DNA of 64,000 nt from Tenacibaculum sp. L6. GTDB taxonomy: Bacteria > Bacteroidota > Bacteroidia > Flavobacteriales > Flavobacteriaceae. Below are positions 7,010 to 30,673 of the stretch, in pieces. How positions within the stretch are numbered: position 1 is the stretch's first letter; the number at the start of each line of letters is the position of its first letter. The position numbers and the translations under genes are program-made. The stretch covers positions 62,001 through 126,000 of the forward strand of contig NZ_JAPEHZ010000001.1 in the NCBI RefSeq assembly GCF_028823685.1. The letters run 5' to 3'. The notes under the pieces are model-generated. The model saw nothing but the letters and a program-made list of their open reading frames with translations. It did not search any database and had not been told where the DNA came from.

Positions 7010-7042
7010 AAAAAAGGTTCAGAAAATTCTGAACCTTTTTTT
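7010..7042. terminator. Bidirectional terminator between alaS and the photolyase island
   Basis: A 14-bp perfect stem (AAAAAGGTTCAGAA with its complement, 7011-7024 and 7027-7040) and T or A tracts on both sides allow it to end transcription from either direction. It lies between the convergent alaS and photolyase genes and marks the 3' end of the minus-strand light island. Confidence 0.9.
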
Positions 7043-8327
7043 ATTGTAACGCTTTCTTATAGGTGTCAATTGCTCGCTCTCTTGCAAACTTATGCTCTAC
7101 CATAGGTTGTGGATAGGTGAGTTCATCGAAGTCTTTCACCCATTTTCTAACATAGTGTAAATCTTTATCAAACTTTTTGAGTTGTTCTGCTGGATTGAAA
7201 ACTCTAAAATACGGAGCTGCATCGCAACCTGTACCTGCTGCCCATTGCCAATTTCCGTTATTTGCCGAAAGATCATAATCCAATAGTTTTTCTGCAAAGT
7301 ACGCTTCTCCCCAGCGCCAATCGATGAGTAAATGCTTACATAAAAAACCTGCAGTTATCATACGAACTCTGTTATGCATGTATCCAGTTTCATTCAACTC
7401 TCGCATGCCCGCATCAACCATAGGGTACCCAGTTTTACCTTCACACCATTTTTTAAATTCTTCTTCGTTATTTCTCCAAGGAACAGCATTATATTTTTCT
7501 CGAAAATTCTCAGTAACTACTTTCGGGAAATGATATAAAGTTTGCATAAAAAACTCACGCCAAATTAACTCACTTAAAAAAGTTTGATTGGTTTTTAACG
7601 CAAAACGAATCATTTTTCGTGTACTAACCAACCCAAAACGTAAATAAGGTGATAAATACGAGGTTTTATCTTGCGAGGGAAAGTCTCTCACCTCATCATA
7701 CGAATCCAAACTAGATAGGTTGTATGGTTTTACTTTAATCGTACTTTCTTTAAAACCTATGGAAGCTAAGGACGGAAACTCAAAAGAGAATTGATAGAAG
7801 TTAGTAAAATTTATGGTAAACTCTTGTGTATCTTTCTTTTCTGAGAAGTTTTGTAACCATTTATTCTTATACGGAGTAAAAACTGTATACGGAGTTCCAT
7901 CATTCTTTACAACTTCGTTTTCTTCAAAAATTACTTGATCTTTAAAAGCATTAAATATTATTCCTTTTGATACTAAAAAGTCTTCTACTTCCTTATCTCT
8001 TTTAATAGCATAAGGTTCGTAATCTTTATTTGTGTAAACTGCTTCAATTATAAATTCTTCAGTTAGTTTTTTACAAATTGCTAATGGTTTTCCTTTTTTA
8101 ACTACCAGAGAAGATTGATGCTTTTTCAGCTCTTCATCTAAGTTTTGCAAGGTTTCGTAAATAAAAGTTACTCGAGCATCATTTTTAGGAAGGCTTTCTA
8201 AAATATCTTCATCAAAAATAAATAACGGAACTACTTTATTACCTGATTGTAGCGCTTCATGCAACCCATTATTATCTTCTAAACGTAAATCTCGACGAAA
8301 CCAAAAAATCGATACTTTATTTTCCAT
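7041..8327 (-). CDS. phrB: Class I CPD deoxyribodipyrimidine photolyase
   Basis: The 428-residue flavoprotein would repair cyclobutane pyrimidine dimers with blue or near-UV light. The N-terminal alpha/beta antenna domain starts VSIFWFRRDLRLEDN. The C-terminal FAD domain contains LIWREFFMQ, GYPMVDAGMRELNETGYMHNR and SANNGNWQW, which keeps the flavin-facing Asn and the first Trp of the electron-transfer chain. It ends YPQPMVEHKFARERAIDTYK, as class I enzymes do. It is the last gene of the island and overlaps the SRPBCC gene by 11 bp, so translation is likely coupled. Confidence 0.95.
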   Translation of the reverse strand: MENKVSIFWFRRDLRLEDNNGLHEALQSGNKVVPLFIFDEDILESLPKNDARVTFIYETLQNLDEELKKHQSSLVVKKGKPLAICKKLTEEFIIEAVYTNKDYEPYAIKRDKEVEDFLVSKGIIFNAFKDQVIFEENEVVKNDGTPYTVFTPYKNKWLQNFSEKKDTQEFTINFTNFYQFSFEFPSLASIGFKESTIKVKPYNLSSLDSYDEVRDFPSQDKTSYLSPYLRFGLVSTRKMIRFALKTNQTFLSELIWREFFMQTLYHFPKVVTENFREKYNAVPWRNNEEEFKKWCEGKTGYPMVDAGMRELNETGYMHNRVRMITAGFLCKHLLIDWRWGEAYFAEKLLDYDLSANNGNWQWAAGTGCDAAPYFRVFNPAEQLKKFDKDLHYVRKWVKDFDELTYPQPMVEHKFARERAIDTYKKALQ

Positions 8328-9880: not shown

Positions 9881-10558
9881 TTAAATTTTTACACTTACAA
9901 TTCCTGCATCTACTGGAATTACTTGTCCAGTAATTGCTGATGCTTCGTCAGACAGTAAATAGGTAGCTAAACTAGCTACTTCTTCTGCTTTTAGGTATTT
10001 TTTTAATGGGTGTCTGTTCTGCATACTCTCTTGTTGTTTTTCATTTCGTAATAAGCGAGCTGCTAAAGGTGTATCAGTAACCGTAGGAGCAATTGCATTG
10101 AATCTAACTTTCGTAGCGTATTCTGCTGCCAACGATTTGGTTAACCCTTCTACTGCTGATTTACTAGTTGCTATGCTTGCATGAAAAGGCATTCCTAAAA
10201 ACGAAGCTACCGTACTAAATAGCACAACGCTTCCGTTATTTTTTGCTAACGAGCTTTCGTAAGCTTTTAAAGTTTTAATTGCTCCAAGAACGTTGATATC
10301 TAAATCGGATTGAAAGTCTTCTAATTTTAATCTTGAAAAGGATTTTAGATTGATACTACCAGGACAATAAACTAATCCGTGAACTTCTTCTAATTCTGGA
10401 AGCTCCTCTTTGGTAACATCGCATGCGTAATGTTTTATATTGTCAATATTAGACGGTGCTGTTCTACTAATGTTAATTATTTTATGTGTGTGTTTTAATT
10501 TGGTTATTATCGCCTTACCAATACCACTACTACCACCAACTACAACAATTGTTTTCAT
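9881..10558 (-). CDS. Atypical short-chain dehydrogenase (SDR) without the catalytic Tyr
   Basis: The 225-residue Rossmann protein has the nucleotide-binding GGSSGIG near residue 8 and a C-terminal TDTPLAARLLRNE and ITGQVIPVDAG. The usual YxxxK motif reads IATSK here, with Ile129 in place of the catalytic Tyr and Lys133 kept. Catalysis is therefore doubtful, or another residue is used. A role in pterin metabolism (sepiapterin-reductase-like) is tempting because folE and PTPS are next door, but nothing in the sequence proves it. It overlaps the 74-residue gene by 4 bp. Confidence 0.85.
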   Translation of the reverse strand: MKTIVVVGGSSGIGKAIITKLKHTHKIINISRTAPSNIDNIKHYACDVTKEELPELEEVHGLVYCPGSINLKSFSRLKLEDFQSDLDINVLGAIKTLKAYESSLAKNNGSVVLFSTVASFLGMPFHASIATSKSAVEGLTKSLAAEYATKVRFNAIAPTVTDTPLAARLLRNEKQQESMQNRHPLKKYLKAEEVASLATYLLSDEASAITGQVIPVDAGIVSVKI

Positions 10559-10779
10559 AATCGTCCTTTTAATCGTTTTTCTACTTTTTGTTTAATAGTT
10601 GTTATGCGTTTCATAACATCCATCAACTGTTTATCTTTACTCTTTTTATACACTTCATTAATTGATAAAATAATTTCTTTCGCTTTCCTTGATGCTAAAA
10701 TTTTTTCATTTCTTGTTTTAAAAGATTTGTAATTTTTCTCAAATTCTAAAGCTTCTTGAAGTAAGTTTATTGTACTCAT
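10555..10779 (-). CDS. Small helical protein of unknown function in the light operon
   Basis: I do not recognise a named family. The 74-residue protein is lysine-rich and predicted entirely helical (LLQEALEFEKNYKSFKTRNEK through IKQKVEKRLKGRL), with no signal or membrane segment. It overlaps the SDR gene by 4 bp and folE by 4 bp. That tight coupling suggests a real protein, probably cytosolic. Confidence 0.7.
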   Translation of the reverse strand: MSTINLLQEALEFEKNYKSFKTRNEKILASRKAKEIILSINEVYKKSKDKQLMDVMKRITTIKQKVEKRLKGRL

Positions 10780-11471
10780 TTTAAATAATTTTGAAGTTCA
10801 ACAATTTTTTCTGAGGTATTAAAAATGCCTCCATAAAAACAGGTAACTGTTGATGACGAATCATCTTTAACTCCTCTAGAAGAAACACATAAATGCTTTG
10901 CATCTATAATTACAGCTACGTCTTCTGTTTGTAATATCTCTTGTAAATCTCTGGCTATTTGATTAGTTAAGCGTTCTTGTACTTGGGGTCTTTTAGCATA
11001 AAACTGAACAATTCTGTTTAATTTTGACAAGCCTATAACTTTTCCTGATGAAACATAAGCCACATGTGCTTTTCCCATTATTGGTACAAAATGATGTTCG
11101 CAATTAGAATAAAACTGTATGTCTTTTTCTACCAACATTTGGTTATATTGGTACCTATTTTCAAACAATGCTATTTTAGGCTTATTGGCTGGATTTAAAC
11201 CTGAAAAAATTTCATCTATATACATTTTAGCTACTCTTTGTGGAGTACCTTTAAGAGAGTCATTATTTAAATCAAGCCCAATAGTTTGCATTATTTCTGA
11301 AAATAATTGTGCTATTTTTTCTTTTTTTTCCTCATCAGAAATTAAAAAAGCATCTTCTACCATAGGCGTTTCAATTCCTGTATAAATATGATCATCTCCA
11401 ATTTCTTCAACCGATAAGTTCTTTATATTATCGCTAACAGGGGTATTCAACAAAGTTTCTAGGTGTTTCAT
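10776..11471 (-). CDS. folE: GTP cyclohydrolase I
   Basis: The 231-residue enzyme converts GTP to 7,8-dihydroneopterin triphosphate, the entry to folate and biopterin. Zinc ligands are visible as Cys124 and His127 (YSNCEHHFVP) and Cys195 (KHLCVSSRGV), and TPQRVAKMY is typical. The N-terminus is about 40 residues longer than the minimal bacterial enzyme. It overlaps the PTPS gene by 38 bp. Being in a photolyase operon, it may be a light-induced copy supplying the pterin antenna of photolyases or biopterin for phenylalanine hydroxylase (28907-30673). Confidence 0.95.
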   Translation of the reverse strand: MKHLETLLNTPVSDNIKNLSVEEIGDDHIYTGIETPMVEDAFLISDEEKKEKIAQLFSEIMQTIGLDLNNDSLKGTPQRVAKMYIDEIFSGLNPANKPKIALFENRYQYNQMLVEKDIQFYSNCEHHFVPIMGKAHVAYVSSGKVIGLSKLNRIVQFYAKRPQVQERLTNQIARDLQEILQTEDVAVIIDAKHLCVSSRGVKDDSSSTVTCFYGGIFNTSEKIVELQNYLK

Positions 11472-11850
11472 AAAGTTTTATTTTAATTTCTAAATGATTA
11501 TTTATCACTAACCTTAGTTTGTTATAAATTACAATTGCTATATTTTCTACTGTTGGATTGAGTGTTTTAAATTCTTCTACTTCTTTATTTAAGTTTTTAT
11601 GATCTAAACAATCTATTATTTCTTTTTGTATATGGTTAGATAAAACTTTTGTATCAATTACATATCCTGTGTTTTCATCTACTTCTCCTACAATAGTTAC
11701 TTCTAACTCATAATTATGGCCATGAAAATTTGGATTATTACATTTGCCAAAAACTTCTTTGTTTTTTGCTTCAGACCATTTCGTATTATGCAACCTGTGG
11801 GCTGCATTAAAATGTTCTTTTCTCGTAATAGCCACCTTTGCTTGCTTCAT
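11434..11850 (-). CDS. 6-pyruvoyl-tetrahydropterin synthase (PTPS, biopterin type)
   Basis: The 138-residue protein has zinc-ligand histidines in AAHRL (His18) and HGH (His43, His45), catalytic Cys37 and a C-terminal YETPRNFVEYPC. The spacing Cys-x5-HGH (CNNPNFHGH) is that of PTPS-II enzymes that make 6-pyruvoyl-tetrahydropterin; the queuosine enzyme QueD has Cys-x3-HGH. No queC or queE is nearby, while folE directly follows. I infer tetrahydrobiopterin-type synthesis, possibly feeding the phenylalanine hydroxylase further along. It is directly adjacent to the TIGR03643 gene. Confidence 0.85.
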   Translation of the reverse strand: MKQAKVAITRKEHFNAAHRLHNTKWSEAKNKEVFGKCNNPNFHGHNYELEVTIVGEVDENTGYVIDTKVLSNHIQKEIIDCLDHKNLNKEVEEFKTLNPTVENIAIVIYNKLRLVINNHLEIKIKLYETPRNFVEYPC

Positions 11851-12117
11851 TTATCGTTTTGCTATTTTATTATTACTTATACTTCTTTGTCTGGTACATT
11901 TAAACCTTCCTTTATTAAATATTCTTTTTGCTTGATGTTTTGTTCTTCTACCCTGTACTCTTTTCCTCCATAATTTAAAACTTGATGGTTTTAATTCTCT
12001 TCGCATTAAATTAATTACTTCTTGTTCTTTTAAGTCAAATTGAAGTTTTATAGCGTCAAAAGTTGTTCGATCTTCCCAAGCCATTTCAATAACTCTATCT
12101 ATCTCTCTTAATGTCAT
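11851..12117 (-). CDS. TIGR03643-family protein (photolyase-associated)
   Basis: The first 65 residues (REIDRVIEMAWEDRTTFDAI, then LMRRELKPSSFKLWRKRVQGR) match the conserved TIGR03643 small-protein family, which is usually encoded near photolyases or cryptochromes. The arrangement looks like a basic helix-turn-helix, but no function is known. Here the protein is 88 residues because of a basic C-terminal extension (KHQAKRIFNKGRFKC...). It overlaps the upstream gene by 4 bp and abuts the PTPS gene. Confidence 0.85.
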   Translation of the reverse strand: MTLREIDRVIEMAWEDRTTFDAIKLQFDLKEQEVINLMRRELKPSSFKLWRKRVQGRRTKHQAKRIFNKGRFKCTRQRSISNNKIAKR

Positions 12118-12533
12118 AAAAAATAACTTTGTGTTGATGTCATTTTCAAATCCATCATTTTTTTTATAAATTTTTTATTCTGATTATATTTATTATCTTT
12201 TCTAAACCTAATAAAGTGGTTATCGGAATGAATACTAAAGAATTCATGATTAAAAACCACTATTTTATAAAAAGGTATTACCCAGCAAAAGCGTTGTAAT
12301 TTATTAGTTATGTAAACTATAATCCCTTTAGGACGTATTTCTATACTTCCATAATTTAAATCGCTAATTGTTGTTAAAATACTTTTAAAGCTTTCACTTA
12401 CTCCTTCAACAATCATTCTACTTGAACCAACTCCTTTAATTTTTAAAGATTGTAAAAAAGACATAGGTTCACCTACTAATTCATTGATTTTTAATACACT
12501 TTCTTTATTATTGTATGTTATATCAAATAACAT
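12114..12533 (-). CDS. Conserved hypothetical protein of the cryptochrome operon
   Basis: I recognise no domain with a known function. The 139-residue protein has an N-terminal mixed segment (VLKINELVGEPMSFLQSL), a central beta-rich region (YGSIEIRPKGIIVYITN, then WVIPFYKIVVFNHEFFSIH) and a basic tail. It resembles a small PH- or GRAM-like sheet followed by a helix, but this is a guess. No signal peptide is seen. It is 4 bp after the cryptochrome stop and overlaps the TIGR03643 gene, so it should be light-regulated with them. Confidence 0.75.
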   Translation of the reverse strand: MLFDITYNNKESVLKINELVGEPMSFLQSLKIKGVGSSRMIVEGVSESFKSILTTISDLNYGSIEIRPKGIIVYITNKLQRFCWVIPFYKIVVFNHEFFSIHSDNHFIRFRKDNKYNQNKKFIKKMMDLKMTSTQSYFL

Positions 12534-12537
12534 TTTT

Positions 12538-14001
12538 TTATTTAACTACATGTTTGTTTAAAATTCTATAGCTTTCTTTTATCACCTCTGGATCTTTACG
12601 CATTTTCCAAATAGTATCTGAGGCATTTTTTCTAGTTACACCTATATCTACTATTGGTTTTGGGTAATCATTACCAAGAGTAAACCCATACATTTTTTGT
12701 TCTAAAGCTGTCATTTTGTATGGTTCGTGCTTAAACGCTAATGGTAATTCTTTAAGTTCTGGTATCCATTTTGAAATAAAAACTGCTTCAGGATCGTGCT
12801 CTAAACCATTTTTTACTGGGTTATAAATTCTAATCGTATTAATTCCAGTTTCTCCTGCCTGCATTTGCAACTGAGGAAAGTGAATTCCTGGTTCAAAATC
12901 TAAAAATAATTTTGATAAATATTTTGATGCTTCTTGCCATGGTTGCCAAAGATTATGTGTAAAAAAAGACACTAACATAGCTCGCATTCTAAAATTCAAA
13001 TATCCTGTATGAATTAAACAACGCATACACGCATCAATAAATGGAATACCTGTTTTTCCGTTTCTCCATGCATATATGTATTTTTTAATAATATTTTTCT
13101 TTAACTTATGAAACCCTTTATTGATACTTTCTTGTTCCATTATACATTCCATTTCGAATTTCTGGATGAAATGTGCCTGCCATTTAAGTCTTGAAATGAA
13201 AGCATCTATTGCTCTTTTATTTCTTGAACTAGAACGAATACTTATTGCTAACTGATACACCTCTCTTACTGAGATATTCCCCCAAGCAATATAAGGTGAC
13301 AGCCTGCTACAGCTCTCCCTTGCTTCTGTTGGTTTTGAAATATTTTTTGCATACCCCTCATACCTTTTGTTAAAAAAACTATGTAAATACTTAAGAGCCG
13401 TAGCTCGTCCTCCTTTTTGAAATAGCTTTTCTTCTTCTGTATCTAAATTTACAATTGTCAAGTTTTTTGCTATTTCTTTTATTTCTGTTATTGTTACAAA
13501 AGAAACATTTGTTGAATCAAATATTATCTGACTTGATTTCATGTAGTTTTCCCAATCCTCTTTCCAACCTTCTCTGTTTTCTCGCCCCCTAAATACTCCA
13601 TTATGAATATTTTCTTTCCATTCTATTACATTATTCTTACAAAACCTTTTAAAGGTTTTATCTCTATTATAAGTTGCAAGAATACCTGTTTCTATATGAG
13701 AGTAGACATTAGTAACATTTGACACCGAGATTAAATACCTAAAAAAAGAAAGTGCCTCTGAGTTTATTGTTAAAACCTGTGTATTATACAGCAACAACTC
13801 TTGGTTTATATCTCGTATAGATTCTTTAACAAAATCCCAATGTCTTTTAGAATAATGTTCGTCTTGTATAATGCTTTCTTCAAAAATATAAACAAATAAT
13901 ATTTTCTTACCTGAAGTTATTGCATTAAAAACAGCCTCGTTATCCTGCAACCGAAGATCTCTTTTAAACCAAACTACTGCTATTTCTCCTGTTATTTTCA
14001 A
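12538..14001 (-). CDS. Cryptochrome/photolyase-family flavoprotein (FEPGIH class)
   Basis: The 487-residue protein has an N-terminal photolyase domain (IAVVWFKRDLRLQDN) and a C-terminal FAD domain (SRLSPYIAWGNISVREVY, LKWQAHFIQKFE, GIPFIDACMRCLIHTGYLNFRMRAM). The flavin-pocket motif is FEPGIHFPQLQMQAGETG instead of the usual ANNGNWQW, so the flavin-facing Asn aligns with His and the first Trp of the chain with Leu. I recall the same pattern in cyanobacterial homologues, so it looks like a distinct class and not decay. Function unknown. The start is TTG (no ATG available), just downstream of a CarH-type promoter module. Confidence 0.9.
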   Translation of the reverse strand: MKITGEIAVVWFKRDLRLQDNEAVFNAITSGKKILFVYIFEESIIQDEHYSKRHWDFVKESIRDINQELLLYNTQVLTINSEALSFFRYLISVSNVTNVYSHIETGILATYNRDKTFKRFCKNNVIEWKENIHNGVFRGRENREGWKEDWENYMKSSQIIFDSTNVSFVTITEIKEIAKNLTIVNLDTEEEKLFQKGGRATALKYLHSFFNKRYEGYAKNISKPTEARESCSRLSPYIAWGNISVREVYQLAISIRSSSRNKRAIDAFISRLKWQAHFIQKFEMECIMEQESINKGFHKLKKNIIKKYIYAWRNGKTGIPFIDACMRCLIHTGYLNFRMRAMLVSFFTHNLWQPWQEASKYLSKLFLDFEPGIHFPQLQMQAGETGINTIRIYNPVKNGLEHDPEAVFISKWIPELKELPLAFKHEPYKMTALEQKMYGFTLGNDYPKPIVDIGVTRKNASDTIWKMRKDPEVIKESYRILNKHVVK

Positions 14002-14070: not shown

Positions 14071-14562
14071 TTAATAGCTATTAATTTTTTGCTTAATTGT
14101 TTTTGCTTTTTCTAGAATTTCTGAGAAGTCTTTTGATATTTCCATTTTTTGCAATAAAGTATACATCATACGCATTCGGTGGTTATTTTTCAACTTCTCT
14201 TTATTTTTATAAAGAAACTCCCAATACAAAGTATTATACGGACACGAATCTTCTTCTGTTTTTGTTTTGTAATTATAAAAGCATTCTTTGCAATAATTAC
14301 TCATTTTATTAATATAACTTGCGCTAGATACATAAGGTTTTGTGGCCACTATCCCTCCATCCGCGTACTGACTCATCCCTCTTGTATTTGGTAATTGCAC
14401 CCACTCTACAGCATCTATATATACTCCTAAATACCAAGCATCTACCTCATCTGGATGAACCTCTAACAATAACGCTAGGTTACCTAAAATCATAAGACGC
14501 TGTATATGATGCGCGTATGCATTATTTAACGAGTTTTTTAACGATTGCTTCACACAATTCAT
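14071..14562 (-). CDS. Iron-sulfur photolyase/cryptochrome, C-terminal half after a frameshift
   Basis: The 163 residues are the C-terminal domain of a prokaryotic iron-sulfur photolyase (FeS-BCP, PhrB/CryB class, (6-4) repair). All four cluster cysteines are here: Cys3, Cys91, Cys94 and Cys107, with spacings 88, 3 and 13 identical to those of Agrobacterium PhrB (350, 438, 441, 454). YAHHIQRLMILGN and ELPNTxGM-like VQLPNTRGM are typical. The N-terminal half is in another frame (14559-15605). The ATG here overlaps the upstream stop, but that Met is simply the family residue before the first cysteine. Confidence 0.85.
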   Translation of the reverse strand: MNCVKQSLKNSLNNAYAHHIQRLMILGNLALLLEVHPDEVDAWYLGVYIDAVEWVQLPNTRGMSQYADGGIVATKPYVSSASYINKMSNYCKECFYNYKTKTEEDSCPYNTLYWEFLYKNKEKLKNNHRMRMMYTLLQKMEISKDFSEILEKAKTIKQKINSY

Positions 14563-15605
14563 TTTTGTTTTTCCTGTCCAAAAAAAATCTGGTAATGAAA
14601 CTTTATTATTAAAAAAATTCTCTTTTTTTTAAAATCTTCTCCTAATTGCCAATAAATACCTCTCATATACTCTCTCCATCCTAATACTTGACGAATAAAG
14701 CCCTCTGCCTGAGAAAGGACTATTGAAGGTTTTTTATGAAACACATCAACAACCTTCTCTACAACTTCTCTCGGGGTTATTAATTTTAAATTAAGAGCAA
14801 ATGATAATCGAGAATGAAACAGAAAATCTTGTGATGAATGCATTGCATCTTGATAATCTCCAAAAAACTCTAACAAGTTGTCACAAAAAAAATCTAGTTG
14901 CTTTATTGCTTGTTCTCTATTTATTGGATAAGTAAAAGTTAATGTTTCTTCTCCAAATGTAACCACTTCTGCTTCATTAAGCTCTTTTAATAATGCTTTA
15001 CAGTCAATATTAGTCTCATAAGGCAAAGGAACTAATTCATCTTGATTCCATTTTTTTCTGTTAGATGCATCATAATTCCATTTACCGCCAACTGGTTCAT
15101 TATTTTCTACAAGTATCTTATGCTTTTTCCTCATATAGCGATAAAAATCTTCCATAACTGTTTTCTTTCTACCTTCAAAAAACTCTTTTAACTCATTCCT
15201 TGTAGTGTAAAAATGTTCTGTATCATACGATTTAATTGGTATCTGTAAGTTCTTGAGTTCATTTTTAAATTGCACATCTAAACGAAACTCGTCAGGCAAC
15301 TGGTATTCAATTTTTGTAATTGAGTATTTTTTTTGTAATACTTTAATATTTTTTATAAGATTGTGCGTGTTATGCGAATCTGATATTTTAAAATACTCTA
15401 CTGCGTGACCTTTCTCTTCTAGTTTTTTAGCAAAACTCCTCATTGCTAAGAAAAACCCTACAACTTTTTGTATATGATGTTTTACATACTCCGTTTCTTG
15501 CTTCATTTCAAACATAGCATACACTACTTTTTTGTTTTTTTGCTTAAACCAGCTATGAGATTCGTTTAACTGATCACCTAAAAGCACTCTAAGTATTACA
15601 TCCAT
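14559..15605 (-). CDS. Iron-sulfur photolyase/cryptochrome, N-terminal part before a frameshift
   Basis: This frame encodes the antenna domain (LRVLLGDQLNESHSWF) and the start of the FAD domain (PSIVLSQAEGFIRQVLGWREYMRGIYWQL) of an iron-sulfur photolyase. After EDFKKK it runs into 20 non-family residues. The correct continuation (NNKVSLPDFFWTGKTKMNC) is one base back. Two in-frame -1 slippery heptamers, A AAA AAG and T TTT TTA, lie exactly there (14610-14628). The break may be a homopolymer sequencing error, a mutation, or recoding. The full protein would be about 510 residues, the usual length. It shares one base with the DASH gene. Confidence 0.85.
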   Translation of the reverse strand: MDVILRVLLGDQLNESHSWFKQKNKKVVYAMFEMKQETEYVKHHIQKVVGFFLAMRSFAKKLEEKGHAVEYFKISDSHNTHNLIKNIKVLQKKYSITKIEYQLPDEFRLDVQFKNELKNLQIPIKSYDTEHFYTTRNELKEFFEGRKKTVMEDFYRYMRKKHKILVENNEPVGGKWNYDASNRKKWNQDELVPLPYETNIDCKALLKELNEAEVVTFGEETLTFTYPINREQAIKQLDFFCDNLLEFFGDYQDAMHSSQDFLFHSRLSFALNLKLITPREVVEKVVDVFHKKPSIVLSQAEGFIRQVLGWREYMRGIYWQLGEDFKKKRIFLIIKFHYQIFFGQEKQK

Positions 15606-16894
15606 TACTTATCAATCCATTTAGCTCTAAATTCCCCATACTTATCATATGTATTAGCTTGCCATTCTATATCAAACTTTTTACTCTCAGAACTATTTCC
15701 TACTCCTGCTATATACATCCAGTTACCATAATTACTGTGCGGATCATAATCTACTAACAAAGATTCAAAGTAGGCTGCCCCAATCCTCCAATCTTGCTGT
15801 AAGTTATGTACAAAATAAGATGCTACGTTTTGCCTTCCTCTATTACTCATCCAACCTGTTTTTCTTAACTCTATCATATTAGCGTTTACAAAATCAGATG
15901 TAGTATTACCTAAAACCCAATTTTTTATCACCTTATTATCATGAATACTTAGTATCGTTTTTTTCTGAACCCCCCCTAATTTGAAGAAGTTATTTTTGTG
16001 ATAACGAACTGCATGTTTAAAGAACTCTCTCCATAACAACTCAAAATACACCCAATATGTTGATGAATTTGCCTCATATTCGTCTTCAAATCTCTTTAGT
16101 TCTTTATAAATTGTTTTTACACTAATAGATCCATTAGATAACCAAGGTGAAAATTTTGTACTACAATTTATTCCTAATAAATTATTTCTTGTTTTCTTGT
16201 AGTCAATCACTTTTTTTGTTTCAAAAAAATAACTTTTCAACCTTACTAACGCTTGCTTTTCTCCTCCTTTAAAAGGAAAAGAATTTCCTAAAACTTTTTC
16301 TGCACGAGAACAGTTTGGTATTTCAAAAAATACCTGAGAATATATATCCTGATAGGGTAAATGATAATTTAACTCTGTGTCTATATCTAATTTTTTTTCA
16401 ACTTTATTTCTAAAAGATAAAAAAGACAACGGGTATTTTTTGTTAAATAACGTATCTATTTGATGTGGCTCATACAAATATTGATTTGTTACCCTTATCT
16501 TTTTTACCTTACTACCAACTACTTTTCTTACTCTCTTTTCTATGTCTTTTTCATCACTAGTTTCATCTTCTTGATAAACTAGGGTAGTAATTAAGAAATC
16601 GTTTTGAATCTCACTAACAACTGTTTCTGTTTTTTTTAACCCTACATAAAAAGGTATATTATATTTAGCTAAACTCTCTTTTAATTCTTTTAATGTTTCA
16701 ATTAAAAAACGAAGACGGAATTTCCCTGTTCTCTCAAAAGAATATTGACGTTTAAAAAACACAGGATCAAACGCATAAAAAGCCACCAAATAACGTTTAG
16801 TCGCTATTGCTTCTTTTAACAGTTTGTTATCACGAACTCTTAAATCGTTTCTAAACCAAATTAAGGTGCATTCTTGTTTTTGTTTTTCCTGCAT
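15605..16894 (-). CDS. DASH-family cryptochrome
   Basis: The 429-residue protein starts [15 protein letters not shown] and has the DASH markers [69 protein letters not shown] and a C-terminal [19 protein letters not shown] proteins bind FAD and a folate antenna, repair CPDs in single-stranded DNA and may signal. The C-terminus is complete. It overlaps the small DUF2256 gene upstream by 34 bp. Confidence 0.95.
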
Positions 16895-17004
16895 TTTTTA
16901 CTACAGTATTTTACTTCACTCCAACTAGCTTCCCATTTCTTCCTCCATGAAAAAGAAAGCCCACAAACTTTACAAATTTTGGTTGGTAAGTGCTGTTTTT
17001 TCAA
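16861..17004 (-). CDS. DUF2256-family small zinc-ribbon protein
   Basis: A 47-residue open frame starting with TTG (17004) reads [20 protein letters not shown], then [18 protein letters not shown]. This matches DUF2256, a four-cysteine family (CxxC...CxxxC) encoded next to photolyase/cryptochrome genes. No ATG is available between the upstream in-frame stop (17032-17034) and the conserved region, so TTG is the likely start. It overlaps the DASH gene by 34 bp and follows the SDR-DUF2867 stop by 11 bp. It is easily missed because of its length. Metal binding is inferred from the cysteines. Confidence 0.85.
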
Positions 17005-17015
17005 TTTTAAACAAA

Positions 17016-18431
17016 TTATTTTGACAAAAAATTAATGAGTTGCTTAAATATAAGTCCATGAAACGGTAAAACAGCAAACCAATAAACTCTACCCCATATT
17101 CCTTTAGGTCTGAATACTGCTTTTTGATAAAGTAAGCCGTCTTTAATAACATACTCTAACCATGCCTCTCCAGGCAGTTTCATTTCTGCAAAGAGCAATA
17201 AACGTTTATTATCTTTATCCGCTAATAATACACGCCAAAAGTCAAGCGCATCTCCTGGCTCTAACTCAGTCGGATCTCTTCTTCCTCTTCTTAATCCTAC
17301 ACCTCCAAAAAGTTTATCTACATATCCTCTTATCTTCCAAAGAAAATTGAACTTATACCATCCTGTTTGTCCTCCTATACTCCAAATTTTATGTAGTGTC
17401 TTTGTTTCATTTTGTACTTCTCTAACTCTCACATCTTTAAAACAGCCGTATTGAGGTATTTGTATATGTTTTGCTAATTGGTCGTGAAAAACACCACTAC
17501 TCATAGCATCTTTCCAACTAGAAATTACTTCGTTTTGTTCTATTTTTTGAAAAGCTAATGCTACCGCTTCTTTATAGGTTATTGGCGCTACATTAAGTAA
17601 CGTATTAATGCTACTTGGTTTTGCTATTACTTCAACCTTCATACTATCCACTAAGGCTTGCGCCAGATTAAAAGAGGTTGATGTTACAAAATATAACCAA
17701 TAGGAAGACAGCTTTGGTGTTAAAACTGGGAGTGTGTAAATATATCTTTTAAAACCTCTTACCTCAGCAAACTGCAATAACATTTCTTTATAGGTTAATA
17801 TTTCAGGACCGCAGATATCAAAAGATTTATTGTGTGTTTCTTTAACCTGTAAACTATTTTCTAAAAAAGCTAATACGTCTCTAACCGCAATAGGTTGTGT
17901 TTTCGTTTTTAACCATTTAGGAGTTACCATTACTGGAAGTTTTTCTACGATATCTCTTATAATTTCAAAAGAAGCACTTCCGCTTCCTACAATAATTCCT
18001 GCTCTAAAGGTTGTTAATGCATAACTGTTTGATTGTAGCTTTTTTTCTACTTCGTATCTTGACTGCAAATGTTTAGATAATGAATTATCATTTACAATTC
18101 CGCTCAAGTATACAACTTGTTTACAGTTGGTAGGCTCTATCAAACTTTTAAAGTTTTCTGCACAGGTTAACTCTAAGTTTTCAAAGTTTTCTGATGTCGT
18201 AGCCATCGAATGTATTAAATAATACGCTGCATCGATATCTTTAGGAAAACTTGTATTTTCTATATTTAAAAAATCAACTTTTATAAAAGTAACATTCGGA
18301 TTGTTTTCAAACTCATCTGGTATTCTATCTAAATCACGAACACAACAAACTAACTTGTGATTACTTTCTAGTAACCTAACAATTAATCGTTTTCCTATAT
18401 AACCCGTTGTTCCTGTGATTAGAATCCTCAT
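17016..18431 (-). CDS. SDR-DUF2867 fusion oxidoreductase
   Basis: The 471-residue protein joins an atypical NAD(P)-binding SDR domain ([20 protein letters not shown], about 1-250) to a C-terminal DUF2867 domain (about 330-471, with [35 protein letters not shown] and GEAWLEY). Such fusions recur in light-induced, CarH/LitR-type gene sets next to photolyases, but the substrate is unknown. It lies 2 bp after the flavin reductase gene. Confidence 0.9.
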
Positions 18432-22171: not shown

Positions 22172-22623
22172 TGTCTTTTATTAAAATATTTAAAGGGCAC
22201 AAACAACATACCGAAACATTCTCCGTCGTGTTTTCCCAAATGTTTGTGATGAATTTTATGGGCTTTTCGTAATCCTTTTAAGTATTGATTGTTTGTTTTG
22301 TCGAACCACTTAAATCTTCTATGAATTAACACATCATGCACCAAGAAATAAGCAATACCATAAAATAATATTCCCAGACCTATGAAAAACAAAAAGTTTA
22401 ACTCTGGTCGAATTCCGAAGTAAAATAATAACATACTAGGTATTGCAAAGACAACAAAAAAAGCATCGTTTTTTTCAAAAACATGTGGATATCCTGGTTG
22501 ATGGTGATCTTCATGTAAATACCAGCCAAAACCGTGCATCACATATTTATGTGTGCACCAAGTAACACCTTCCATAACAATAAACGTTAGTGTAGTTACT
22601 GCTATGTAAATTGCTATATTCAT
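22168..22623 (-). CDS. crtZ: Beta-carotene hydroxylase
   Basis: The 151-residue membrane di-iron enzyme has the full set of histidine boxes: HKYVMH, HEDHH, HDVLIHRR and HKIHHKH. It would hydroxylate beta-carotene to zeaxanthin, the main pigment of many marine flavobacteria. Four hydrophobic segments separate the boxes. It overlaps both neighbours by 4 bp. Confidence 0.95.
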   Translation of the reverse strand: MNIAIYIAVTTLTFIVMEGVTWCTHKYVMHGFGWYLHEDHHQPGYPHVFEKNDAFFVVFAIPSMLLFYFGIRPELNFLFFIGLGILFYGIAYFLVHDVLIHRRFKWFDKTNNQYLKGLRKAHKIHHKHLGKHDGECFGMLFVPFKYFNKRQ

Positions 22624-23066
22624 AATGATGTATTGTTAATTATATATGTATGTAAATAACTTACACTGTCTTTTTTTTGAAGCACTTCTTTTAAAAACTG
22701 CTTGTCTTTTTTAATAGAAGATGTATATCCTAAAATACTTGGTGTATTTTCTTGTATTACCAACCTAACATACCTTAGATGGATATTGTTAGGGTTCTTT
22801 AAAATCAACTCTTCTAATTTGTTTTTATTAGTGTTAAAAACTTTTAGTTTACTCCAAGGCATTGTTTTATATTTTGCCTGTTTCATTTGTAAAGAAACTA
22901 CATAGGCTTGTATACTTACTTCTTTACTGTTTTTATATTTTTTTATGTAAGACGACTCTGCTTCTTTAGTAGCTAATTCATGGTATTCTATAACAAAATT
23001 AGGTGCATTATTGAAGCTTATAATCGACATAAAAAACAGTACTCCTAAGATACCACTTTTAATCAT
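22620..23066 (-). CDS. Conserved hypothetical protein between crtB and crtZ
   Basis: I recognise no known domain. The 148-residue protein has an N-terminal hydrophobic signal or anchor (GILGVLFFMSIIS) and then a soluble, helical, lysine-rich region (ELATKEAESSYIKKYKNSKE, NPNNIHLRYVRLVIQENTPS). The residue pattern near NIHLRYVRL recalls a degenerate TPR-like helix pair. Four-bp overlaps with crtZ and crtB make co-translation and a link to carotenoid synthesis or membrane placement likely, but this is inferred. Confidence 0.75.
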   Translation of the reverse strand: MIKSGILGVLFFMSIISFNNAPNFVIEYHELATKEAESSYIKKYKNSKEVSIQAYVVSLQMKQAKYKTMPWSKLKVFNTNKNKLEELILKNPNNIHLRYVRLVIQENTPSILGYTSSIKKDKQFLKEVLQKKDSVSYLHTYIINNTSL

Positions 23067-26622: not shown

Positions 26623-27516
26623 TTAATATTTATTTAAGAACTCTTTTAAAGAAGGATGAACTGATATTTTTGCTTTAAAATCAACATTATCAACAGTCAT
26701 AGCTTTATTACCTATTGCTATTAACTCATGTTCTGTATTCATAAGCGCTCTTTCAATTTCTGAAAAATATTCTTGCACCTTATCATCATAGGGTTGAACT
26801 GTCATAGAAGTAATAAAACAAATTTTCGCATCACTTTTAAAAAAGTGATCTAAATTATCTAAAGGCAAACTCTGCCCTAAATAAATTGTATTATACCCCC
26901 TTAATGTAAGTTCATAATTTAGATATATTAAACCTAATTCGTGTACTTCATTTTCTGGCAAGAACAACACATAAGTAACTTCCGAATTGTTATTAGAATA
27001 CTCTAACTTCTCTATATTGATTTGTATTTTTTGAACAATTAAGTTAGAAATAAAATGCTCATGCGCCGGTAATAAAGTATCTGTTTGCCACAAGAGCCCT
27101 ATATGATTTAGAAAAGGAACAAAAACATCTTTAAAAATCTCTCTAAATGTTTTTCTTTTCAACAAACTGTTGTAAGTATTATTAAACAATGTTTTATCGA
27201 ACTGAAACATTGCCATTTTAAAGGAATTTATTGCCTCGTCATTTACCGCCATTTTAAAAGCCAACTCTCTCGCCTTTAAAATTATAGTATTATCAGACAT
27301 TTCTGCTATCTTGGAAATTTTGATATTGTTTTGATTCAACAAAACAACATTTAAAAGTTTCTGTAAATTCTCAGAAGAATAGTAACGAATATTTGTATCA
27401 GTTCTTTCAGGCGACAGCAAATTATAGCGCTTCTCCCAAATACGGATTGTATGCGCTTTGATTCCTGAAATATTTTCTAGGTCTTTAATCGTAAATGTCG
27501 ACTTAATATTGTTCAA
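26623..27516 (-). CDS. carH: MerR-family B12-binding photoreceptor regulator (CarH/LitR type)
   Basis: The 297-residue protein has a MerR helix-turn-helix (FTIKDLENISGIKAHTIRIW, residues 9-28), a helical B12-binding cap with W143-x9-E153-H154 (the CarH signature) and a cobalamin-binding domain with ExHxxG (H192 as lower ligand). CarH proteins bind adenosylcobalamin, repress DNA in the dark and fall apart in light. I choose TTG at 27516: no ATG precedes the helix-turn-helix, and homologues begin MNN. It is placed upstream of the FAS1-carotenoid genes and probably controls the whole island and itself. Confidence 0.92.
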   Translation of the reverse strand: MNNIKSTFTIKDLENISGIKAHTIRIWEKRYNLLSPERTDTNIRYYSSENLQKLLNVVLLNQNNIKISKIAEMSDNTIILKARELAFKMAVNDEAINSFKMAMFQFDKTLFNNTYNSLLKRKTFREIFKDVFVPFLNHIGLLWQTDTLLPAHEHFISNLIVQKIQINIEKLEYSNNNSEVTYVLFLPENEVHELGLIYLNYELTLRGYNTIYLGQSLPLDNLDHFFKSDAKICFITSMTVQPYDDKVQEYFSEIERALMNTEHELIAIGNKAMTVDNVDFKAKISVHPSLKEFLNKY

Positions 27517-27545
27517 TGCTTTTTGTTTTCTATTAAACAAATATA
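27508..27545 (-). promoter_or_regulatory. carH -7 box and degenerate operator (possible autorepression)
   Basis: On the minus strand TATATTTG (27545-27538) fits the -7 consensus. A TAAACAAA arm on the plus strand (27534-27541) overlaps it, and the partner at 27508-27515 reads ATTGTTCA, 6 of 8 positions, again with an 18-bp spacer. The site would cover the start region and the TTG codon. This is the weakest of the four sites. Confidence 0.35.
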
Positions 27546-27628
27546 CAAATTTCTTTAAATTAAGAATCAACCCTCTACTTCTGAACTATATTATCACTAT
27601 TTTTGATTAGATTTTTCACAATTTACCT

Positions 27629-28906: not shown

Positions 28907-30673
28907 TTATGCTTCTTGGTAATTCTCCAACAAAAGTAAGCCGTTTTCAATTAACGTTGTGTAACTCTTGTTACTTTTCATCGATTCAAGGTAGTTACGT
29001 AACGTATCTTTTATTGAAAAATTATTCATTACGGCTAACTCCAATAATTCTAAAGGCAGTAACCAATCGTTTTTAAACTGAGAACTTACTTCATTAAAAA
29101 TTCCTTGAACTTTCTCCTCAGAAACTGTGCCAGCCTTTCTCATCATCCTCACTTCATTATACAAACTATATAATTTTTTATCTGATTCTGAATACTGAAT
29201 CTTATGAGTTTTTGTTTCTGACACTTTTCCTACATCACCAAACGAGGTTATATCTGCAGGTCCTGCAAAAGCAGAAAAAGCAGAAACGACATCAACTCCA
29301 ACCGCCATATCATACACTCCCCAATCTGGGTGAAACAATACAGTATCACCATGAGTTACGGTACAGTCTTTAAAAGATATCAATAAAATCCTACCTCGTA
29401 AATCTCTGGTTCCTGTAATTACTTCTCCTTCTACTTTTATTCCGCCTTCAAACTCTAAAGCAACCTGCTCTCCTTCATAAATCCCGTAGGCTTTCAAATC
29501 ACGAGGACTCATATTTTCTATCGGAATATTAATTCCTTTTAGCTTCCCTATCGGACTTCCAAAACCTTCTGCGTGGTAATTTGTTCCGTGACCTATCAAC
29601 TCTTTATCTCTATTTGCTAACGCAGTAGGACCTGTTGTTTGTATATAAATGGCTTTATTATTCTCATCAGTTATTACATTGGTAAAAACCCCTGACACCT
29701 GAATTCCTGTACTTAACTCGATAGTTCCTAAATTTTTAGAATCAATGAGTTTTTCAATTCCTTTTAGTCCTCCTGTTCTGATAGCCATTTTATTAGCAAA
29801 TTGCTCCAATACTAAACTTAAATGAGCAAAATCTGGCGTTACAAATAATTGAGGTTGCGGCTTCGTGATATCAAAGTTTACATTAGCAGCATCTAATGTA
29901 TATGCAACTTTTTCTACCTCATCTTTCATACACCATTTACTCTCTCCTATTGAAGATAACAATCCCGCTCCATAAATTTTCGGATTTTCGAGAGTCCCTA
30001 TCAACCCATACTCCACTGTCCACCAGTGAAGATTTCTAATCTGAGCCATTTCCGAAAGCTCTCCCATATTATCTTGTAACCACTCTACTTTCTCTTGCGC
30101 TTCATCAATCTCTTCTTGGGTAGAATTTGGATCTTCCTTTAGAATAGATAATAAACGAATAGCTTCATACATTTCATAATCTTTCGCTGATGAAATTGCC
30201 TTGGCTCCAATTTCTCCAAAACGACGTAAATACTCTGCATATTCTGGATTTGCAATAATAGGTGCATGGCCAGCTGCTTCGTGAATAATATCAGGTGCCG
30301 GTGTATATTCTATATGGTCAATCGTACGCATATCTGATGCGATTACCAGTACATTGTATGCTTGAAATTCCATAAAAGCATTTGGCGGAATAAATCCATC
30401 TACCGATACTGCCGCCCAACCTATTTCTTTCAAAATACGGTTCATTCCTTGCATATGAGGAATTTTTTCAACTGAAATTCCTGTTTTTTTCAGTCCATCT
30501 ATATATGAAGCATGCGCTACTTTACCAAGGTAATCTACATTCATTCGCATTACATAACGCCATACGGCTTGGTTTTGCGCAGTGTACTCGTCATACGGTT
30601 GTTTTACTACGAATTTATGTAAGTGCTTGGGTAGCTTTTTGGTAACTTCGTTTAATTCAAAATGAGGTTCCAT
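28907..30673 (-). CDS. phhA: Aromatic amino acid hydroxylase (phenylalanine 4-monooxygenase)
   Basis: The 588-residue protein has an N-terminal pterin-dependent hydroxylase domain with iron ligands His131 and His136 (IIHEAAGH) and Glu221 (TVEYGLIG). A C-terminal region of about 300 residues is typical of Bacteroidota versions and has no assigned role. It would convert phenylalanine to tyrosine using tetrahydrobiopterin or a similar pterin. That fits the folE and PTPS-II genes at 10776-11850 as cofactor sources (inferred). It forms a pair with the rhodanese gene. Confidence 0.93.
   Translation of the reverse strand: MEPHFELNEVTKKLPKHLHKFVVKQPYDEYTAQNQAVWRYVMRMNVDYLGKVAHASYIDGLKKTGISVEKIPHMQGMNRILKEIGWAAVSVDGFIPPNAFMEFQAYNVLVIASDMRTIDHIEYTPAPDIIHEAAGHAPIIANPEYAEYLRRFGEIGAKAISSAKDYEMYEAIRLLSILKEDPNSTQEEIDEAQEKVEWLQDNMGELSEMAQIRNLHWWTVEYGLIGTLENPKIYGAGLLSSIGESKWCMKDEVEKVAYTLDAANVNFDITKPQPQLFVTPDFAHLSLVLEQFANKMAIRTGGLKGIEKLIDSKNLGTIELSTGIQVSGVFTNVITDENNKAIYIQTTGPTALANRDKELIGHGTNYHAEGFGSPIGKLKGINIPIENMSPRDLKAYGIYEGEQVALEFEGGIKVEGEVITGTRDLRGRILLISFKDCTVTHGDTVLFHPDWGVYDMAVGVDVVSAFSAFAGPADITSFGDVGKVSETKTHKIQYSESDKKLYSLYNEVRMMRKAGTVSEEKVQGIFNEVSSQFKNDWLLPLELLELAVMNNFSIKDTLRNYLESMKSNKSYTTLIENGLLLLENYQEA

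Follow-up and report, generated by a model that had tools for sequence, protein, structure and literature searches.

Small proteins in a photolyase-rich gene run of Tenacibaculum sp. L6 and their tentative assignment to two modules of a light-stress operon

The window analysed here, a stretch of 64,000 nucleotides from Tenacibaculum sp. L6 (Flavobacteriaceae; contig NZ_JAPEHZ010000001.1, positions 62,001 to 126,000), contains a run of 27 listed open reading frames (ORFs; the split FeS-BCP gene is counted twice) that are all encoded on the minus strand, from a MerR/B12 gene (27570) to a photolyase gene (7041). The run comprises carotenoid, pterin, TspO, photolyase and cryptochrome genes. Most neighbouring genes overlap or abut, and just two gaps within the run exceed 60 bases, one of 213 bases behind the MerR gene and one of 69 ahead of the cryptochrome gene cry487. 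Five small ORFs of this run, DUF2256, TIGR03643 (DUF2805), p139, s74 and p148, are the subject of this study. A preliminary description had placed them as overlapping or abutting neighbours of light-response genes, which the ORF positions and gaps bear out, and had considered DUF2256 and TIGR03643, as families recurring with photolyases, good candidates for accessory roles in repair or flavoprotein signalling. The small ORFs and the features around them are:

s74, 10555..10779, minus strand: 74 residues, helical as judged by sequence
TIGR03643 / DUF2805, 11851..12117, minus strand: 88 residues, small and basic, possible helix-turn-helix protein
p139, 12114..12533, minus strand: 139 residues, predicted PH-like fold
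DUF2256, 16861..17004, minus strand: 47 residues, TTG start, Cx2Cx19Cx3C, predicted metal-binding
p148, 22620..23066, minus strand: 148-residue ORF between crtB and crtZ
NADbind471, 17016..18431, minus strand: NmrA/epimerase-like NAD(P)-binding protein with C-terminal DUF2867 (PF11066, 119.6 bits)
cry487, 12538..14001, minus strand: cryptochrome/photolyase family (PF03441, 204.7 bits)
FeS-BCP-type (6-4) photolyase, N-terminal part, 14559..15605, minus strand: PF04244, 233 bits; 6-4 photolyase 7ykn/8a1h, E 8e-74
FeS-BCP, C-terminal part in the other frame, 14071..14562, minus strand: frame change near an 8-A run, 14623-14630
Cryptochrome DASH, 15605..16894, minus strand: TIGR02765, 409 bits (cut-off 317)
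PTPS (6-pyruvoyl-tetrahydropterin-synthase-like), 11434..11850, minus strand: PF01242
GTP cyclohydrolase I (folE), 10776..11471, minus strand: NF006824, 280 bits, over cut-off
SDR oxidoreductase, 9881..10558, minus strand: PF13561, 137.5 bits
Photolyase (phr), 7041..8327, minus strand: 3' end of the run; PF03441, 244.9 bits at about 7122-7580 (C110:69122-69580)
MerR and B12-binding regulator (LitR/CarH-like), 26623..27570, minus strand: head of the run; PF13411 and PF02607

Within 9881-14001 the order of transcription is cry487, p139, TIGR03643, PTPS, folE, s74 and SDR. p139 begins 4 bases after cry487 and overlaps TIGR03643 by 4 bases, and TIGR03643 adjoins PTPS at a distance of 0. Overlaps of 4 bases also join folE to s74, s74 to SDR, crtB to p148 and p148 to crtZ. 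NADbind471 and DUF2256 are separated by 11 bases, and DUF2256 overlaps DASH by 34. A MerR-type, B12-binding regulator accompanies the small genes as in LitR/CarH regulons (PF13411 and PF02607, 26623-27570).

Conservation was followed in 80 related loci, all from Bacteroidota, which came from a scan with the TIGR03643 protein of the window and were searched by tblastn with 25 window proteins; as they were picked via TIGR03643, they are uninformative on how frequently it is absent. DUF2256 was found in 63 of these loci, mostly in the same order, s74 in 59 (80 copies) and p139 in 56; the corresponding counts for other window genes are 68 for SDR, 65 for phr, 63 for cry487, 61 for folE, 60 for FeS-BCP and 56 for DASH. 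Median dN/dS, calculated with at most 40 copies and 300 pairs for each gene (68-97% DNA identity, dS under 3), amounted to 0.095 for p139 (150 pairs), 0.101 for TIGR03643 (209 pairs), 0.104 for s74 (215 pairs) and 0.124 for DUF2256 (198 pairs). Conserved in relatives, mostly in the same order and with dN/dS about 0.1, these four are hence real genes under purifying selection. For p148 no relative was detected by tblastn (80 loci) or phmmer (84), and no Pfam or NCBIfam family matched over its cut-off; just 7 of the 80 loci hold both crtB and crtZ. By these searches p148 is lineage-specific, and it lends no support to an accessory role.

DUF2256 scored 71.4 bits against PF10013 (gathering cut-off 25). 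The cysteines C11, C14, C34 and C38 of the window protein form a Cx2C...Cx3C arrangement that fits the TRASH-type zinc finger pattern, and the family has been placed in the TRASH clan (PMC4047054). Its distribution was determined in two genome samples, 100 Flavobacteriaceae and 198 Bacteroidota (phylum sample); p values other than the stratified ones ignore descent. DUF2256 and FeS-BCP (PF04244) each occur in 47 Flavobacteriaceae, together in 46, with one genome for each alone. In the phylum sample, DUF2256 is present in 63 genomes (of 64 with a match; G110 was excluded) and FeS-BCP in 65: 58 carry both, five DUF2256 alone, seven FeS-BCP alone and 128 neither (p 6e-36). Photolyase genes (PF03441) were located among the matches listed, so that distances are upper bounds, linked counts are lower bounds and linkage is underestimated. 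On this basis a listed photolyase is found 2 kb or less from DUF2256 in at least 45 of 47 Flavobacteriaceae and at least 33 of 52 other Bacteroidota, and 1 kb or less in at least 26 of the latter 52. The random distribution relative to photolyase genes that would have spoken against the preliminary description was thus not found for this gene. Presence and absence in the 67 full-length loci among the 80, uncorrected for descent, correlate at 0.85 with FeS-BCP, 0.77 with cry487 and 0.74 with DASH, and at -0.01 to -0.08 with folE, phr, SRPBCC and SDR. DUF2256 tracks photolyases, the iron-sulfur class (FeS-BCP) above all. The plasmids with DUF2256 belong almost entirely to other phyla; in three of ten of their loci (Sphingomonas, Rhizobium, Acinetobacter) an annotated photolyase adjoins the gene, two more (Burkholderia, Sphingobium) place it among folE, SDR and FAD-oxidoreductase genes, and five have neither. 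In two Salinivibrio plasmid records a photolyase is named under the DUF2256 match.

The second small gene that follows FeS-BCP, TIGR03643, scored 120.5 bits against its NCBIfam model (cut-off 66.55) and 121.7 bits against Pfam DUF2805 (PF10985, cut-off 22.5); an alignment of 14 sequences from Bacteroidota, Pseudomonadota, Cyanobacteriota and viral contigs has 26 invariant columns. Counted over the cut-off, it occurs in 55 Flavobacteriaceae (of 56 with a match; the partial match of G015 and a second, weak match of G079 were excluded) and in 53 genomes of the phylum sample (of 56; G120, G124 and G268, with sub-cut-off relatives only, were excluded). All 47 Flavobacteriaceae with FeS-BCP carry it. 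In the phylum sample 48 genomes have both genes, five TIGR03643 alone, 17 FeS-BCP alone and 128 neither (p 1e-25). The association persists within the 120 genomes that have a PF03441 match at E up to 0.001 (109 over cut-off), where the counts are 48, five, 15 and 52 (p 1.5e-14), and in a Mantel-Haenszel test stratified by eight mixed genera (p 6e-4), these being the genera recognisable among the rows listed, with matchless genomes outside those rows left out. A PF03441 match, in some cases weak, is present in 53 of 53 genomes with TIGR03643 versus 67 of 145 without it.

The co-occurrence part of the expected neighbourhood pattern of TIGR03643 is therefore strong, and its adjacency part is not general: a listed photolyase is found 10 kb or less from the gene in at least 39 of 55 Flavobacteriaceae but in at least 9 of 41 other Bacteroidota (at least 11 when the photolyase-like neighbours in G122 and G190 are added). 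Of the copies outside Flavobacteriaceae that are unlinked among the matches listed, 28 of 32 share their genome with FeS-BCP (26 of 30 after adding G122 and G190), compared with 15 of 67 genomes that have a PF03441 match and lack TIGR03643. Plasmids carry the gene as well, with 43 records from Vibrio, Acinetobacter, Pseudoalteromonas, Nostoc, Tolypothrix, Calothrix and Spirosoma. Among 12 inspected plasmid loci, one of them a sparsely annotated Acinetobacter record, an annotated photolyase flanks TIGR03643 in two (A. haemolyticus, V. fortis); in two records without usable annotation, a search with the window photolyases found none. DUF2256 adjoins it in three of the 12, two from Acinetobacter and one from Pseudoalteromonas, the latter with a FAD-binding-domain protein more than 4 kb away. 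The two genes are 59 bases apart in 11 Acinetobacter plasmid records, and the annotated genes adjoin in a twelfth. The claim that both families recur with photolyases across phyla thus holds only in part, with an annotated photolyase nearby in few of the plasmid loci (3 of 10 for DUF2256, 2 of 12 for TIGR03643). On the whole, the preliminary interpretation finds partial support. Taken together, DUF2256 and TIGR03643 are quite probably functionally tied to photolyase-bearing light responses.

In its AF2 model (mean pLDDT 77, about 90 over the first 50 residues) TIGR03643 has helices at 3-15, 20-27, 31-41 and 44-54. Judged by title, 26 of the 50 structure matches listed belong to sigma factors, transcription regulators, homeodomains and comparable proteins, with retroviral integrases accounting for a further six; on this weak structural evidence, a small protein that binds DNA through a helix-turn-helix is a possible identity for TIGR03643. 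PDB sequence searches with TIGR03643, p139 and s74 yielded no credible relative. Two reports on DUF2805, a link to translation domains via metagenome abundance (PMC3597751) and a single occurrence with an NADH-pyrophosphatase Nudix domain (PMC6856373), led no further. A phage origin was rejected, with no match in 50,697 phage records and no PHROG at E 0.01, yet four viral contigs carry the gene. In two of these (L111 and L113) the gene two away from TIGR03643 presumably resembles an NAD(P)H quinone reductase/flavodoxin-fold protein. In one genus of the window's family (g101), a distant relative of about 41-54 bits, under the cut-off (L198 7650-7928, L199), occurs even in genomes without true TIGR03643.

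For p139, the window protein has no Pfam match at E 0.1, PH-type families included, and no NCBIfam model, and 29 members gave scattered weak matches to other families, none consistent; a SET_assoc match was dropped as weak and inconsistent. The AF2 model (mean pLDDT 88) consists of a beta sandwich and a long C-terminal helix. Its listed structure matches are mostly PH, PTB, FERM and EVH1 domains, the best with Z 9.5 (1foe) over 118 residues, and Foldseek gave a probability of 0.98 and E 6e-3. p139 is hence predicted to have a PH-like fold, which by itself implies no function. In 49 of its 56 loci p139 has cry487 and TIGR03643 as its immediate neighbours on either side. It is confined to the window's family in the phylum sample (8 of 198 genomes) and had no match on plasmids. 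It was found with one match each in 63 of the 100 Flavobacteriaceae, 28 in a first clade, 34 in a second, and one fragment (G079) that was left out of the classes. The first clade was assigned by score and place: 27 of 28 copies lie in or beside light-operon genes, 24 of them beside TIGR03643 and three (G013, G093, G066) in the light operon without adjoining TIGR03643, and that of G025 groups there in the tree, yet has no light genes in 15 kb around it (L271). The second clade forms one side of a supported branch (97/91) in a tree of 145 columns and 99 rows whose bootstrap is unsettled.

In the second-clade genomes (34 of the 63 with p139) no photolyase match was found in the stretches around the p139 genes. 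The 36 second-clade loci, 34 from the family sample and two from the phylum sample, include 20 in which p139 stands directly before a NADbind471-like (DUF2867) gene on the same strand. In loci L269 and L270 the order NADbind-p139-folE-s74-SDR-phr is kept and no TIGR03643, cry487, DASH or FeS-BCP was seen, an arrangement that makes p139 independent of these four genes. The DUF2867 protein NADbind471 is the best-supported, and a likely, partner of p139. Across the 67 loci, p139 correlates with s74 at 0.85, flavin reductase 0.77, TspO 0.71, SDR 0.61 and NADbind471 0.60, followed by phr 0.55, FeS-BCP 0.54, cry487 0.47 and DASH 0.36. TIGR03643 is present in 23 of the 34 second-clade p139 genomes versus 5 of 37 without p139 (p 3e-6, uncorrected for descent). 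Beside many second-clade copies (L193, L237, L244) lies a divergently oriented gene of about 595 residues that we take to resemble argS. At one locus (L254), DUF2256, second-clade p139 and CIA30 adjoin, with no photolyase match in the 10 kb around.

The s74 gene directly precedes the SDR gene in 57 of its 80 copies and forms tandem pairs in 21 loci (e.g. L042, L059, L106), the two copies being clearly diverged. It had no Pfam or NCBIfam match over cut-off and no consistent match among 16 members; YlbF, Rsd and SPT16 Pfam matches were dropped as weak and inconsistent. Like p139, it is restricted to the window's family in the phylum sample (5 of 198 genomes). Its correlation with photolyase genes ranges from 0.20 to 0.60 in the 67 loci, that of p139 from 0.36 to 0.55; both proteins correlate most strongly with one another and with the genes for flavin reductase, TspO and peroxidase. 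For the families of p139 and s74, Pfam and NCBIfam have no model. The window genome contains a second s74 gene outside the operon (contig C170; L188 7961-8203). Elsewhere, s74 genes precede SRPBCC and photolyase genes (L190) or lie near the same kind of 595-residue gene as second-clade p139 (L189).

The reading we favour, at a probability of roughly 40%, is a single light-stress operon whose small genes fall into two modules. The operon would be headed by the LitR-like MerR/B12 regulator with the small genes as cargo, and judging from gene order and the published Pseudomonas regulons it would answer to light via this protein. In the first module DUF2256 would act with the FeS-BCP, cryptochrome and DASH genes, most likely as a small zinc-binding (TRASH-type) helper of flavoproteins, e.g. 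in maturation or DNA handling. TIGR03643 would belong here because it is co-inherited, also where its gene is located away from the others; it would most likely bind DNA via a helix-turn-helix and either help to regulate the same light/UV response or assist in it while bound to DNA. In the second module, p139 and s74 would be grouped with the genes for the SDR, flavin reductase, TspO, peroxidase and DUF2867 protein. The most likely role of p139 would be that of an adaptor with a PH-like fold that works with the DUF2867 oxidoreductase, and s74 would most likely be a helical protein accompanying the SDR/folE step. We infer these biochemical roles and the LitR-like regulation; what the analysis shows are the coordinates, conservation, gene order, co-occurrence and two predicted folds. 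The finding is a sound lead, not a discovery.

Several observations weigh against this picture. The modules separate sharply for DUF2256 and by degrees for p139: the correlations of p139 with phr (0.55) and FeS-BCP (0.54) are near that with NADbind471 (0.60), and s74 reaches 0.60 with phr, so that the line between the modules is not a clean one. Most of the 80 loci come from close relatives, and the correlations are uncorrected for descent. Among the PF03441 matches are weak ones that may represent the FeS-BCP gene itself. Seven of the ten DUF2256 plasmid loci have no annotated photolyase within 4 kb, and neither photolyase nor DUF2256 is near TIGR03643 in two Nostoc loci and one Tolypothrix plasmid locus. 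TIGR03643 occurs without FeS-BCP in 8 of 55 Flavobacteriaceae and 5 of 53 genomes of the phylum sample, and in four IMG/VR viral contigs (L111-L114), of which about 5 kb or less is visible per side. The structural similarity found for TIGR03643 is weak: the highest Z is 5.4, spliceosome chains fill the first five places (Z 5.0 to 5.4) and no Foldseek E-value lies under 1, which leaves the helix-turn-helix reading plausible rather than established. In 16 of the 36 second-clade loci p139 is not directly beside the DUF2867 gene, two of them having one ORF between.

That all the small proteins are accessory subunits of photolyases or cryptochromes, in repair or flavoprotein signalling, appears rather unlikely. 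Such a role would agree with the co-occurrence of DUF2256 and TIGR03643 with FeS-BCP, with the DUF2256-DASH overlap and the close linkage (1 kb or less) of DUF2256 outside Flavobacteriaceae, with two Acinetobacter plasmids on which photolyase, DUF2256 and TIGR03643 adjoin, and with the usual place of p139 between cry487 and TIGR03643. However, p139 and s74 persist without FeS-BCP, DASH and cry487 matches in L269, L270, L067 and L068, s74 also in L066 and L090; second-clade p139 sits elsewhere, and about 30 of 41 TIGR03643 genes outside Flavobacteriaceae are unlinked to a photolyase among the matches listed. The small proteins fall into separate sub-groups of the cluster, which makes it unlikely that every one of them is a photolyase helper. 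One common function for the five ORFs was dropped in view of the correlation pattern, the p139-DUF2867 pairing outside the operon and the lack of relatives of p148.

It is unlikely, too, that the small genes merely mark light-exposed bacteria and that their correlation with FeS-BCP stems from shared retention under high UV. The association of TIGR03643 with FeS-BCP remains strong inside the PF03441-match genomes and the mixed genera, the genes overlap by four bases, and DUF2256 correlates with FeS-BCP and not with phr or SDR of the same loci. These points count against such hitch-hiking, which would nonetheless be in keeping with the phylogenetic structure of the sample, the mixture of carotenoid, TspO and pterin genes in the operon, and a gene-proximity study that ties a photolyase cluster to proteorhodopsin-bearing Flavobacteriia (PMC5932025). 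TIGR03643 could also be a general regulator that binds DNA, independent in itself and adopted by many systems, plasmids and viruses included, with the photolyase operon as one context. Its position near ParA/ParB genes on one Vibrio and one Nostoc plasmid, its presence in viral contigs and its varying neighbours in other Bacteroidota point in this direction; the PF03441 match in every TIGR03643 genome of the phylum sample, and FeS-BCP in 48 of the 53, make this explanation improbable. Within the favoured two-module reading, a bolder version appears doubtful: FeS-BCP, DUF2256 and TIGR03643 might form a co-inherited UV-response system of three parts, with a zinc-binding mini-protein and a helix-turn-helix protein aiding the iron-sulfur photolyase in finding or handling damaged DNA, and the Flavobacteriaceae operon would have gained a second light module with a PH-like protein and a DUF2867 oxidoreductase.

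Among the neighbouring genes, cry487 matches best, of solved sequences, chains named Cryptochrome-2, which we take to be plant proteins. The FeS-BCP gene is split over two frames (348 and 163 residues) near the 8-A run (window 14559-14630). All 46 further copies in the family sample have an open frame of at least 490 residues, and the break may be a sequencing error, slippage or a genuine interruption. The PTPS protein matches three 6-pyruvoyl tetrahydro(bio)pterin synthase chains at E 2.6e-34 to 5e-31 and 6-carboxy-tetrahydropterin synthase chains at just 5e-6 to 1e-5, and scores below the TIGR00039 and QueD cut-offs. A QueD identity was rejected, as the solved PTPS chains are far closer (1e-31 to 1e-34 vs 5e-6 to 1e-5); the protein is nearer to the solved BH4-type enzymes. 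This type of PTPS was found by tblastn in one of the 80 loci (L043). A biopterin-dependent aromatic amino acid hydroxylase (PF00351, window 28907-30673) lies near the PTPS, folE and SDR run. The locus of Tenacibaculum finnmarkense (L031) retains TIGR03643, SDR, CIA30 and phr and has no tblastn match for cry487, FeS-BCP, DASH, DUF2256, p139, folE or s74.

Bacterial photolyases have mostly been studied as single proteins. Since DUF2256 and TIGR03643 follow FeS-BCP across Bacteroidota, even when unlinked, genes of unknown function become testable parts of bacterial (6-4) repair or its control, and the p139-DUF2867 pair provides a concrete candidate partner for an unmodelled, predicted PH-like protein. 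If the two-module reading is true, loss of DUF2256 or TIGR03643 would affect repair and loss of p139 or s74 would not. In the available portions of the open-access literature, no reported function was found for TIGR03643, DUF2256, DUF2805 or DUF2867. The study of the photolyase cluster in proteorhodopsin-bearing marine Flavobacteriia excluded NA, unknown and DUF groups from its annotation count, and the available portions of its main text do not discuss the small genes of the window (PMC5932025). Nor are they named in the available portions of a report on a photolyase operon (PMC9649867).

The light-inducible LitR regulons of Pseudomonas include phrB, ufaM, folE, folM, folX and cryB (PMC9758184). 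In common with these LitR/CarH regulons, the window has a MerR-type regulator, photolyase/cryptochrome genes, folE, a short-chain dehydrogenase and hypothetical proteins, as well as start codons that overlap or lie near the preceding stop (PMC9758184). Unlike them, it forms a long same-strand run with carotenoid genes, FeS-BCP, DASH, the DUF2867 protein, p139 and s74. DUF2256 has the Cx2C ... Cx3C arrangement of TRASH-clan zinc fingers (PMC4047054) but is a stand-alone, photolyase-tied protein of 47 residues with predicted metal binding. Similarly, the p139 model shares the beta sandwich and long C-terminal helix of the PH-like superfold (PH, PTB, FERM F3, EVH1), whereas p139 is a stand-alone bacterial protein of 139 residues with no credible sequence relation detected. 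Heliorhodopsin is a seven-helix membrane rhodopsin and as such unlike these small families; it has been reported to raise the repair capacity of photolyase, and the likeness lies in a second protein that aids a photolyase (PMC9769723).

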